DNA of 64,000 bases from Candidatus Aquabacterium excrementipullorum (GTDB taxonomy: Bacteria; Pseudomonadota; Gammaproteobacteria; Burkholderiales; Burkholderiaceae_C): positions 1 to 64,000 of the forward strand of contig DXIO01000023.1 of the NCBI GenBank assembly GCA_019112875.1, given 5' to 3'. The notes under the pieces were generated by a model. It searched no databases. It was given only the letters and a program-made list of their open reading frames with translations, and was not told the origin of the DNA. Shown piece by piece: positions 22,872-49,757 of this stretch (positions are counted from its first letter, which is position 1; each line of letters opens with the position of its first letter). Position numbers and translations under genes: made by a program.

Positions 22872-23102
22872 ATGACAAGTTGTTTCGACCGCGAAGACAC
22901 CGTCTTTCGCGTGCTGGTCAACCACGAAGAACAGTATTCGCTGTGGCCTGAGTGGAAGGCCATCCCCGCCGGCTGGCGCGACACCGGCGTGCAGGGCGAC
23001 AAGAAGACCTGCCTGGCCCATGTCGACCAGGTCTGGACCGACATGCGGCCGCTGTCGCTGCGCCGCTTCATGGACGAACAGGCCGCGGCCGAGGCGCGCT
23101 GA
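22872..23102 (+). CDS. mbtH: MbtH-like protein, adenylation domain chaperone
   Basis: 76 aa. The family motifs are intact: [17 protein letters not shown] and [13 protein letters not shown]. MbtH proteins bind NRPS adenylation domains and are needed for folding or activity. It is the first gene of the synthesis operon, as orbH is in the ornibactin locus, and its stop overlaps the start of the next gene by one base (TGATG at 23100-23104). Confidence 0.96.
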
Positions 23103-23839
23103 TGCCGCCCGCCGTCTCGTTGCTGTGCCTGCCCTGCGCGGGCGGCAGCGCCACCATGTACCTGCGCTGGAAGCGCCTGATGCCCGCCTGGCTGCGCATC
23201 GTGCCGGTGGAGCTGCCTGGCCGTGGCGCGCGCCTGGACGAGCCCTGCGAGGCCGACTTCGATGCGCTGGTGGCGCGCCTGTGCGACGAGCAGGCGGCTG
23301 AACTCGCCGGCCCGCATGCCTTGTTCGGGCACAGCATGGGCGGTCTGCTGGCACAGGGCATCGCACACCGGCAGCGTGAGCTGGGCCGGCGTGCCGCCCA
23401 GGCGCTGTTCGTGTCGGCCAGCCCCGCGCCGGCCAGCCGTGAGCCGGGCCGCTTCGCTGGCCGCCACGACGACGCCTGGCTGGTCGGCGATCTGCGCCGC
23501 CAGGGCGGCACCCCCGAAGAAGTGCTGGCCGATGCGGAGTTGCGCCGCCTGACGCTGTCGGTGCTGCGTGCCGACTACGGCGTCTGCGAGAGCTTCAGCC
23601 ACCGTGCGCAGCGCGCGCCGCTGGACATGCCGCTGCACGCCTTCGGTGGCCGTGACGACGAGATCGGGGAAGCGCGCCTCACGCCCTGGCGTGACGAGAC
23701 GCGCGGGCCGTTCGCGCTGCACTGGTTCAGCGGCGGCCACTTCTTCATCCGCGAACACGAGGCGCGCGTGCTCGACATCGTCGGGCGAGTGCTGTCCGCA
23801 GGGCCCGCGCACCCCGTGCCCGAGCCGGCGGCGGCCTGA
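23102..23839 (+). CDS. Type II thioesterase for NRPS/PKS editing
   Basis: 245 aa. Alpha/beta hydrolase of the RifR/GrsT type: N-terminal [17 protein letters not shown], nucleophile Ser in FGHSMGG (about residue 80), Asp in FGGRDDEI and His in SGGHFFI. It removes wrong or stalled acyl groups from carrier proteins. The start is fixed by the one-base overlap with mbtH; upstream in-frame codons lie inside mbtH. Confidence 0.95.
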
Positions 23840-23931
23840 TCGGGCCGCGCTCACTTCATCACACACGACCCGCGCATGCGTTCCCCGCGGCCCACGAGGC
23901 GGCACGGACAGGCGCCTTTGAGGATCCCGCC

Positions 23932-46600: not shown

Positions 46601-49600
46601 CCTGCCCGGCGCGCAGGACATCCTGGGCCTGTTCATCAACACCATCCCCGTGCCCGTGCAGCGCCGCCCGGGCCAACGCGTGGGCGAGCACCTGCGCGCG
46701 CTGCAGGCGCTGAACCTGCGCCTGCGCGAGCACGAACACAGTCCGCTGTCCGACATCCAGCGCTGGGCCGGCTCCTCCGGGCGCCCGCTGTTCGACAGCA
46801 TCATCGTCTTCGAGAACTACCCGGTGGACCAGGCTCTGCGCCAGCACGAACGGCACGGCCTGCGCTTCGGGGACGTGGCCGGCCGGGGCCTGACCGGCTT
46901 CGCGATGGACCTGCAGGTCGTCGTGGGCGAGACGCTGGAGATCGAGTACAGCTTCGACCGCCGCGCCTTCTCCGACGCGCGGGTGGCCGCGTTGCGCACG
47001 CAGATGGAAAGCGTGCTGCGACAGATGTGCGCCGGTGCCGACCAGGCCATGGGCGCGCTGGACTGGCTGAGCGATGGCGAACGCCAGGCTCTCCGGCGAC
47101 TGGGGCAGGGCGATCGCGCCCCGGCTGGCCGCGCCTGGGCCGACGGCACCCGCCCCGTGCCACGCGCCGCGGTGGACACACCCTGCCACGCCCCCGTGCA
47201 CGCGCTGATCGAGCACCACGCCGCCACGCGCCCCGAGGCCATCGCCGCGGTGATGGGCGACGAGGCCTGGACCTATGGCCGCCTCAACGCCCAGGCCAAC
47301 CGCCTGGCCCACCACCTGATCGCGCTGGGCATCGGCCCAGAGCGCCGCGTGGGCGTGGCCATGTCGCGCGGGCCGGCCACGCTGGCCGCCTTGCTGGCCG
47401 TGCTCAAGGCCGGCGGTGCCTATGTGCCGCTGGACGCGGCCTATCCCGCCGAGCGCCTGCGCTTCATGATGGCGGACAGCGGCCTGGCGGTGCTGCTCAC
47501 GGAGCAGTCGATTTCAACGGTGTTGCCGCAGCCTGACCAGGCCACGCGCGTGCTGTGCCTCGACACGGCCGATTTGCAATCGCAACTGGCATCCTGCCTG
47601 GACACCAACCCCGCGCGCGCCACTTCTGAGGCGCAGATGGCCTATGTCATCTACACCTCCGGCTCCACTGGCCGGCCCAAGGGCGTGGCCGTCACGCACG
47701 GGCCCTTGTCCATGCACTGCCAGGCCACCGCGCGCCTGTACGGCATGGACGCCTCTTCGCGCGAGCTGCTCTTCATGTCGCTGGCCTTCGACGGCGCGCA
47801 CGAACGCTGGCTCACCACGCTGTGCACCGGTGCCTCGCTGTCGGTGCGCGACGACGAACTGTGGACCCCCGAGCAGACCTGCCAGACCCTGCAGCGCCAT
47901 GGCGTCACGCAGGCGGCCTTCCCGCCGGCCTACCTGGGCCAGGTGGCCGACTGGGCCGCGCAGCAGGGCGATGCGCCGCCCGTCGGCCTGTACGTGTTCG
48001 GCGGCGAGGCCATGCCCCGCGCCACCTACGACAAGGTGCGCCACGCCTTGCGGCCCCAGGCGCTGATCAACGGCTATGGCCCGACCGAAACCGTGGTCAC
48101 GCCGCTGATCTGGAAGGCCCGCGCGGACGAGACCTTCGACGGGGCCTACGCCCCGATCGGCCGCCCCGTCGGCGAACGCACGGCCCATGTGCTCGATGGC
48201 GATCTGCAGCCCGTGCCCATGGGCCACGTTGGCGAGCTCTACATCGGCGGCCTGGGCCTGGCGCGCGGCTACCTCGGGCGCTCGGGCCTGACTGCCGAGC
48301 GCTTCGTGGCCGATCCCTTTGACGAGACCGGTGGCGGCCGCCTCTACCGCACGGGCGACCTGGTGCGCTGGCTGAGCGATGGCCAGGTCGAGTACGTGGG
48401 CCGCGCGGACCACCAGGTCAAGGTGCGGGGCTTCCGCATCGAACTGGGTGAGATCGAAGCGAGCCTGCTGGCCCAGCCCGGCGTGGCCGAGGCCGCCGTC
48501 GTCACGCAGGACACGGACCCCGGCCGGCAGCTGGTGGCCTATGCCGTGCCGATGCCGGCCACATCGGCAGACGCCGCATGGACTGCCGCGCTCAAGGCGG
48601 CGCTGGCCAGCCAACTGCCCGACCACATGGTGCCTTCGCACATCGTGCCTTTGGCCGCGCTGCCCCGCTTGCCCAGCGGCAAGCTCGACCGCCATGCGCT
48701 GCCCGCGCCAGGGGCCACCGCATCACCATCGGATGCGCACGTGCCGCCCTCGACCGACGCTGCGCGCCGCCTGGCTGCGCTGTGGCGGGAGGTGCTGCGC
48801 ATCGAGCGCATCGGCGAGCAGGACAACTTCTTCGAACTGGGCGGCGATTCGCTGCTGAGCCTGAAGGTGGTGTCGCGCGTGCGCCAGTGGAAGGATCCCG
48901 CCATCGACTTCAAGCTGCGAGACCTGATGCAGCGCCCCACCATCGCGGGGCTGCTGCGCCTGCCCTCGGCGCCCACCGGACCGTCACAGGCTGTGGATCG
49001 GCAGGCCGGCGAAGCCCTGGTCGCACTGAACGCCCGCACCGATCAGGCCTCACCGCTGTTCTGCCTGCACGCCGGCATCGGCACGGTCTTCGACTACCAG
49101 CCGCTCGCACGCCGCCTGCATGGCCGCCGCACGGTGCTGGGCCTGCCTTGCCGCATGCTGGCCGACCCCAACCACCGCGACAGCTCGCTCACGCAGATGG
49201 CCGACGACTACGCCCGCCTGATCCACGCCGCGCAGCCCGACGGCCCTTGCCACCTGCTGGGCTGGTCGCTGGGCGGCGCGCTGGCCGTGCTGGTGGCCGC
49301 GCGGCTGGAGGCTAAGGGCAGGCAGGTCGGCCTGCTCGGCCTGGTCGATGCCTTCGTGCCGGCGGTGCCGCCGTCGGGGCCCATCCGGGAGACTGCAGAC
49401 GACGATGAGGCTGCTTTCGCCGACCTCCTGGGCAACATGGCCGACACCGTGGCCCAGGCTTTGGGAGGCGATGAGATCACGCGCATGAAAGCCGTGTCCA
49501 AGCATCTGGGCGCGCTGTCGGCGCGGGCGGGTGAGCTGCCCCGCGTGCAGGCCGCACCTCAGATGTGGTGGGCCGCATCCCGTGCGCAAGCCCACCGCGA

Positions 49601-49757
49601 CGCGCTGTCACGCCAATGCGGCCACGCCGGCGCAAGACACCAGGAGATCGCTGTCACGCACTTCGAACTGCTGCGCCAAGCCGAGCTGCTCACGCAGATC
49701 GACGAGGCACTGCAAGCGATGGAGGGTGGCGCCCAGGCACCCGCCCGGGCCGCTTGA
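37662..49757 (+). CDS. NRPS 3: C-A-PCP-E-C-A(Thr)-PCP-C-A-PCP-TE
   Basis: 4031 aa. Module 1: C (HHIVSDG near 182), A, PCP (GGDSI near 1064), E ([13 protein letters not shown] near 1253; VGWFTSLYP near 1407; NYLGQF near 1473). Module 2: C ([17 protein letters not shown] near 1595; HHLLMDG), A, PCP (GGDSI near 2621). Module 3: C ([17 protein letters not shown] near 2707; HHLLLDG), A, PCP (GGDSL near 3727), then thioesterase (GWSLGG near 3867, His in VTHFELL near 3999). Pocket codes: module 1 D-G-E-C-T-G-G-V-T-K, module 2 D-F-W-N-V-G-M-V-H-K (threonine), module 3 D-G-E-A-V-G-G-V-T-K. Modules 1 and 3 are alike and, given the PvdA-like hydroxylase nearby, probably take N5-hydroxyornithine or its acyl form. 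E makes the first of these D. The TE frees or cyclises the product. Module 2 has no E although the next C looks D-donor type. Confidence 0.95.

Follow-up and report, generated by a model that had tools for sequence, protein, structure and literature searches.

The gene cluster described here raises the question of what its assembly line makes and, above all, which amino acid its first module loads. It lies in a window of 64,000 nucleotides from Candidatus Aquabacterium excrementipullorum (positions 1 to 64,000 of contig DXIO01000023.1, our contig C107, in a genome of 4.75 Mb) and occupies about 21725-60024, from a Fur box to an exporter gene. The first-pass annotation of this DNA had given the range 22872..49757, which covers the assembly line and omits the regulatory, tailoring and transport genes at 21725-22794 and 50002-60024, and had called the product predictable, with an arginine-like residue in first place. 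The prediction that the line builds a lipopeptide siderophore holds on the sequence: a fatty acyl-AMP ligase (FAAL) and acyl carrier protein (ACP) start is followed by a condensation-adenylation-peptidyl carrier (C-A-PCP) module, an ornithine N5-monooxygenase and a GNAT enzyme are encoded nearby, and genes for export, uptake and iron control accompany them. We consider it probable, with some reserve, that the product is acyl-hOrn-(malonate)-Asp-D-hOrn-Thr-hOrn (hOrn, N5-acyl-N5-hydroxyornithine), a hexadentate trihydroxamate in which residue 1 is a third hOrn. "Predictable" was too strong a word for residue 1, for the acyl group of the hydroxamates, for the length of the chain and for the way it is released. 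The order of domains, the codes and the genes present are read directly, all substrates are predictions from them, and residue 1 is the least certain. The genes of the nonribosomal peptide synthetases (NRPS) and polyketide synthase (PKS), with the two small genes ahead of them, are as follows.

22872..23102, + strand: MbtH-like protein (PF03621, 83.7 bits), with which the earlier range begins
23102..23839, + strand: type II thioesterase (PF00975, 8.7e-45, on the translation), start chosen by eye at an ATG overlapping the mbtH stop
23932..29409, + strand: NRPS1, FAAL-ACP-C-A-PCP (Pfam: two AMP-binding, two PP-binding and one C domain), A code DAEHIGAITK
29406..34145, + strand: PKS with ketosynthase (KS), acyltransferase (AT), ketoreductase (KR) and ACP (Pfam), malonyl-type AT (HAFH), KR motif YAAAN
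34188..37661, + strand: NRPS2, C-A-PCP (Pfam), A code DLTKVGHVGK (Asp)
37662..49757, + strand: NRPS3 (Pfam: four C-type domains, three A, three PCP and a thioesterase, TE)

Pfam matches between 23932 and 49757 reproduce the domain order annotated before, FAAL-ACP-C-A-PCP / KS-AT-KR-ACP / C-A-PCP / C-A-PCP-E-C-A-PCP-C-A-PCP-TE, and since the domain E-values run from 1.2e-8 to 1.1e-296, chance is ruled out for these calls. For the first AMP-binding domain of NRPS1 the closest NCBIfam models are fatty acyl-AMP ligases, at 480 bits against a cut-off of 600. NRPS3 is ordered C-A(DGECTGGVTK)-PCP-E-C-A(DFWNVGMVHK, Thr)-PCP-C-A(DGEAVGGVTK)-PCP-TE. Its C-type domain at 41004-42335 is directly followed by another C domain and carries what we take to be the motif of an epimerization (E) domain; it stands after the first hydroxyornithine module, in keeping with the D-configured residue proposed there earlier. 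By alignment the five A codes are, in line order, DAEHIGAITK, DLTKVGHVGK, DGECTGGVTK, DFWNVGMVHK and DGEAVGGVTK, the same as in the first-pass annotation, as is the AT motif HAFH. Reading this motif as malonyl-type, and DLTKVGHVGK and DFWNVGMVHK as Asp and Thr, as we presume them to be, bears out the non-methylated ketide, the Asp and the two hydroxyornithine-type positions flanking Thr. Among the codes listed for modified ornithine in PMC12283262 (cited from excerpts, as are all papers here) are DGECTGGITK, one V/I change from the DGECTGGVTK of the window, DGEACGGVTK and DGEGSGGVTK, which resemble its DGEAVGGVTK, and DVWNIGLIHK. DGEAVGGVTK and DAEHIGAITK themselves were absent from the open-licence literature searched.

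The likeness to the variochelin, cupriachelin and taiwachelin loci that had been pointed out before stands for the FAAL start and the PKS insertion, but the lack of a TauD-type hydroxylase had gone unnoticed. None of the cluster open reading frames (ORFs) scanned with Pfam matched PF02668 (TauD), the one hydroxylase family searched for. The sole PF02668 match of the genome lies on contig C42, where the adjoining ORFs look by eye like those of a sulfonate ABC transporter, and we rejected it on that ground as an enzyme acting for this line. The family was likewise missing from all five further genomes with the code DAEHIGAITK in the A domain of NRPS1, hereafter A1 (A. soli, three Nitrosospira and Nitrosomonas JL21), and it occurred in 1 of 23 Nitrosospira genomes, one in which the best NRPS1-like match is only 42% identical. 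Among the Pfam-scanned ORFs from 21725 to 60024 no oxygenase was found besides the ornithine monooxygenase. Because no TauD-type aspartate hydroxylase is present, the Asp residue of the product is probably un-hydroxylated, as far as gene content can tell, and the line is set apart from the photoreactive relatives named above: the feature of photoreactive beta-hydroxyaspartate siderophores, judged by the hydroxylase, is lacking, with no PF02668 beside the line.

To place residue 1, ligand codes were compared over complete clusters, 10 of the family sharing DAEHIGAITK (the window, A. soli and eight Nitrosospira) and 13 references. The ligand count of a cluster was the number of hydroxyornithine codes plus every Asp-code module where the cluster has any TauD gene. 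Family clusters were excluded as incomplete (Ns361, with an A domain split over two frames) or as reaching contig ends or not extended (Ns366, Ns369, NpAV, MGR_bin150, 40_S54, JL21 and L021). Excluded references were fragmented, cut, not extended or had broken frames (G013, G052, G122, G268, G272, G295, P. violacea and Nitrospira L031) or differed in architecture (G058, G096, Polyangium, Synechococcales, Stagnimonas and Hydrocarboniphaga); loci L025, L026, L028-L030 and L033-L035 were left out of annotation. In G119 and G334 the hydroxyornithine code is read only as DGEG owing to an alignment gap and was scored as hydroxyornithine; the J. fluminis contig starts within the first module, the last module of Eleftheria has C and PCP and no A by the profile used, and Variovorax PDNC026 has no TE by the profile used.

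We favour a third hydroxyornithine as residue 1 on three grounds: the number of ligands elsewhere in the line, the constancy of position 1 and the lack of an Asp hydroxylase. All 10 complete family clusters have DAEHIGAITK at position 1, 9 have DGEC(T/I)GG(I/V)TK at position 4, and at the last position 8 have DGEAVGGVTK and 2 have DGECIGGITK. The residue at position 3 is Asp in 2, ornithine (Orn)-type DGEDHGTVTK in 6, Gly in 1 and absent in 1; position 5 is Thr in 2, DGEDHGTVTK in 4, Ser in 2 and absent in 2. In each of the 7 reference clusters that begin with DVWNIGLIHK, exactly two further iron ligands are predicted. Among the six with another first code, three have three (Variovorax PDNC026 with DAEDLGAITK, Eleftheria with DAEDVGAVTK and Cupriavidus pampae with DIWHVSLIEK), one has four (Methylosinus, DGEDHGTVVK) and two have two (Massilia atriviolacea, DAEYIGAITK, and Deefgea, DGEDHGTVEK). 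In the DAEHIGAITK family there are two other ligands in 9 of the 10 clusters, the window included, and one in the tenth (Ns357). Position 278 is mostly Asp in Orn- and Arg-type codes, Cys, Ala, Gly or Asn in hydroxyornithine codes, and His in A1. In A-domain trees DVWNIGLIHK is placed among Ser domains, so hydroxyornithine specificity seems, from these sequences, to have evolved more than once, and kinship is therefore a weak guide to what A1 loads.

Kinship is, all the same, among the points that weigh against a third hydroxyornithine. A1 shares 21 of 29 pocket positions with the Arg-type DAEDLGAITK domain of the variochelin-like Variovorax line and 15-16 of 29 with hydroxyornithine codes, and nine of the ten positions of DAEHIGAITK agree with the Arg consensus published in PMC12283262, 278 being the exception. 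The careful tree unites the 20 hydroxyornithine rows in a separate clade (96/96) and leaves A1 beyond it, near the Arg and DAEYIGAITK rows. The ligand rule has exceptions in Methylosinus (four), Deefgea (two, with an Orn-type A1) and Ns357 (only one beside A1), and DAEPIGGVTK in G119 has a neutral residue 278 at a position scored as no ligand. Position 1 may also be conserved for sharing a protein with the FAAL and feeding the KS, and related genera are non-independent samples. Should arginine occupy position 1, as it does in variochelin, the line would make the dihydroxamate acyl-Arg-(malonate)-Asp-D-hOrn-Thr-hOrn, whose four hydroxamate oxygens would hold iron, perhaps with the Asp carboxylate or in complexes of two or more molecules. 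This we regard as a possible but less likely outcome. Variochelin does carry Arg plus methylmalonate at the corresponding place (excerpts of PMC10999976), and the match to the consensus and the wider pocket lean towards the "Arg-like" label given earlier. Besides the three grounds for a third hydroxyornithine, arginine is opposed by the replacement of the consensus Asp278 by His, by the three other ligands in both complete references with DAED first (Variovorax PDNC026 and Eleftheria) against two in the window, and by the KS of the window, which joins the ammonia-oxidiser sequences rather than the KS that follows DAEDLGAITK. The trees placed A1 with neither Arg nor hydroxyornithine: in the careful tree, forcing it together with Arg gave p 0.15 and forcing it together with hydroxyornithine p 0.108, so that neither constraint was rejected. 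A PDB search with A1 returned A domains of other systems only, none naming its substrate.

Two further readings have a small share. That residue 1 is something else, such as Gln, citrulline or unmodified ornithine in a neutral, medium-sized pocket, or that a hydroxylase of a different family acts on Asp, which would make the third ligand something other than a hydroxamate, appears improbable; the former would fit a code without a literature counterpart in our search, and beta-hydroxylases beyond PF02668 were not searched for, but the scanned ORFs offer no second oxygenase and the Asp position is itself variable in the DAEHIGAITK family. It is very improbable that this is a plain locus for variochelin, cupriachelin or taiwachelin, with a photoreactive product that is already known. 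Related clusters do share the FAAL start, the PKS insertion, similar regulators and the exporter, but the window has no TauD, a malonyl-type AT, and Thr without Pro or Ser, and we set the plain locus aside on the missing TauD, which already contradicts it unless some other type of hydroxylase is at work, and on the different extender and residues. According to the excerpts of PMC10999976, variochelins A-E of Variovorax resemble the predicted product in coming from an NRPS/PKS line with an acylated first residue followed by a PKS unit and in holding two N-acetyl-N-hydroxyornithines. They differ in methylmalonate, in Ser and Pro, in the TauD domain embedded in VarG that yields the photoreactive beta-hydroxy-Asp, and in having one residue more; the window has neither TauD nor a methylmalonyl extender (AT HAFH), and its codes after residue 1, Asp, hOrn, Thr and hOrn, leave no Ser or Pro module, so that the different residue order remarked on before is borne out. 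Cupriachelin of C. necator is likewise a lipopeptide with N-acyl-N-hydroxyornithine, but has two beta-hydroxy-Asp, diaminobutyrate (Dab) and Gly (excerpts of PMC10484230).

Other lines share parts of this design. The plasmid cluster of Variovorax sp. PDNC026 (NZ_CP070344) has the FAAL-ACP-C-A / KS-AT-KR start and modules with DGECTGGITK and DGEAVGGVTK, but differs in an A1 code DAEDLGAITK, an AT motif IASH, an in-frame TauD after the PKS and nine A domains. The Janthinobacterium/Massilia clusters G205, G209 and G210 have the PKS after residue 1, three predicted hydroxyornithines and no TauD in the stretches fetched; unlike the window they have DVWNIGLIHK first, Ser spacers and no E domain by the profiles used. 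A related FAAL-NRPS / PKS siderophore line (L088, L155) is carried by a methanotroph plasmid, pOB3b3 of Methylosinus trichosporium OB3b, accompanied by TauD, a lysine/ornithine hydroxylase gene and a diaminobutyrate transaminase.

On the reading with a third hydroxyornithine, biosynthesis would run as follows. A Fur protein and the sigma factor of the extracytoplasmic function (ECF) type would control the cluster, as judged by their sites. The FAAL would put a fatty acid onto the ACP, as its domain type suggests, and the C domain of NRPS1 would couple the fatty acyl group to residue 1. The PKS would add one malonate, reduced to a beta-hydroxy acid. Next would come Asp, most likely serving as an unmodified spacer, then N5-acyl-N5-hydroxyornithine in the D configuration, Thr and a final N5-acyl-N5-hydroxyornithine, before the TE frees the finished chain. 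The ornithine monooxygenase and the GNAT enzyme would supply the N5-acyl-N5-hydroxyornithine. For a linear acid with a C12 acyl group the calculated [M+H]+ is 977.5401 if the product holds three N-acetyl-N-hydroxyornithines and 961.5564 if Arg comes first, and the ferric forms would lie at 1030.4516 and 1014.4679; each change of the acyl chain by two carbons moves these values by 28.031. Applied to variochelin A, the calculation reproduces its published formula.

The closest named relative of the cluster is that of Aquabacterium soli SJQ9, with a PKS 82-83% identical and the same domain order, five codes (one V/I change), Fur box and candidate promoter. Of 42 genomes of the genus of the window, 2, its own included, have full-length PKS relatives, and C-A relatives of NRPS1 at 54-57% identity are present in 18 of 23 Nitrosospira genomes. 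The line of Nitrosospira Nsp14 equals that of the window in domain order; Nitrosospira lines differ from it in the varying positions 3 and 5 and in a module sometimes gained or lost. The KS tree unites Aquabacterium, Nitrosospira and Nitrosomonas in a single clade (100/100) that excludes the Variovorax, Massilia and Cupriavidus lines, whereas the tree of first C domains did not group Aquabacterium with Nitrosospira. None of the best places in a collection of 596 plasmid records held an NRPS1 match of at least 60% identity, and in the genus of G295 1 of 8 genomes has a cluster, with no second one. We see an even chance that these lines make a trihydroxamate family acyl-hOrn-(malonate)-X-D-hOrn-Y-hOrn, found in a few Aquabacterium and most Nitrosospira, with three fixed iron-binding positions, with spacers X and Y (even a module) free to vary, and with a His278 that converts an Arg-type A domain to hydroxyornithine. 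A shortened line occurs in two Nitrosospira genomes (G370 and G373; L142-L145), where two DGECIGGITK A domains are sequence-identical within each genome, which suggests recent duplication or gene conversion; these stretches, as fetched, have no GNAT or esterase match, and their hydroxamate acyl group is perhaps different.

The cluster is of a known general siderophore type, from whose best-known members it differs in its extender, its residues and its lack of TauD, and the expectation of a photoreactive variochelin-like product is corrected. A product with this residue order, or such a siderophore in Nitrosospira, was not found in the open-licence literature, a search that did not extend to Aquabacterium siderophores. 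If a third hydroxyornithine is right, ammonia-oxidising soil bacteria would have a siderophore family, and the number of ligand codes elsewhere in a line would predict what an ambiguous first adenylation domain loads, which is a testable rule; if residue 1 is Arg, an ordinary new congener remains. For betaproteobacterial ammonia oxidisers, excerpts of PMC7285500 describe lost siderophore synthesis and "cheaters", a picture with which the Nitrosospira clusters would contrast.

The remaining features of the cluster concern its control, tailoring and transport.

21725..21743, strand not assigned: Fur box TATAATGATAATAATTATC ahead of the sigma gene, 2 mismatches to the 19-bp consensus
21755..22327, + strand: ECF sigma factor, iron-starvation type by context (Pfam Sigma70_r2/r4; NCBIfam NF005448, 226.5 bits, cut-off 190)
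22468..22746, + strand: 92-amino-acid DUF4880 protein resembling the N-terminal part of FecR, alone (PF16220, 31.9 bits, cut-off 25)
22770..22794, + strand: candidate ECF promoter TAAAT-N16-CGTC ahead of the mbtH operon, the sole match in the window
50002..51240, - strand: PepSY_TM protein, putative ferrisiderophore reductase (PF03929, 2.5e-66)
51153..52442, - strand: second PepSY_TM protein (PF03929, 8.9e-57)
52463..54766, - strand: TonB-dependent siderophore receptor, FhuA/FoxA-like (TIGR01783, 316 bits, cut-off 223.5)
54882..55829, - strand: Abhydrolase_3 esterase (PF07859, 1.1e-71)
55832..57274, - strand: L-ornithine N5-monooxygenase (PF13434, 3.6e-119)
57141..58265, - strand: GNAT acyltransferase (Acetyltransf_8; PF13523, 5.7e-53), probable N5-hydroxyornithine acetyltransferase on its presumed substrate
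58381..60024, + strand: cyclic-peptide-type ABC exporter (TIGR01194, 468 bits, cut-off 286)

The Fur box was scored against what we take to be the 19-bp consensus; at this mismatch level 100 shuffles gave no match, and an identical 19-mer precedes the sigma gene of A. soli. For the promoter pattern 0.10 matches are expected in the window and 9 of 100 shuffles contain at least one, so the weight of the site rests on its recurrence across clusters: it stands at a near-constant distance from mbtH in 5 of the 26 clusters with mbtH, namely the window, A. soli and three Massilia/Janthinobacterium/Pseudoduganella clusters. The lone DUF4880 protein may act in the cytoplasm as a partner of the sigma factor; in 17 annotated clusters, the window included, its profile has matches of at least 29 bits close to the sigma gene or to mbtH. 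The receptor scores 454 bits with the FhuA and 360 bits with the FoxA model, each under its own equivalog cut-off. Relatives of the esterase adjoin the lines of A. soli, Nitrosospira Nsp14 and 6 of the 8 further Nitrosospira clusters uncut by a contig end.

Directly after the exporter, 60021-60335 encodes a 104-amino-acid Fur-family protein. Of the 121 positions of the FUR profile it matches 2-71 only, and it seems to lack the C-terminal part. A TonB receptor closest to PqqU (19379-21607; 684.6 bits, cut-off 1200) lies upstream of the sigma gene, as in A. soli. The last third of a long ORF on the - strand (16315-19335), whose start may be wrong, encodes an ArsO-like flavin monooxygenase; the roughly 600 residues ahead of this part have no Pfam or NCBIfam match at 0.001.

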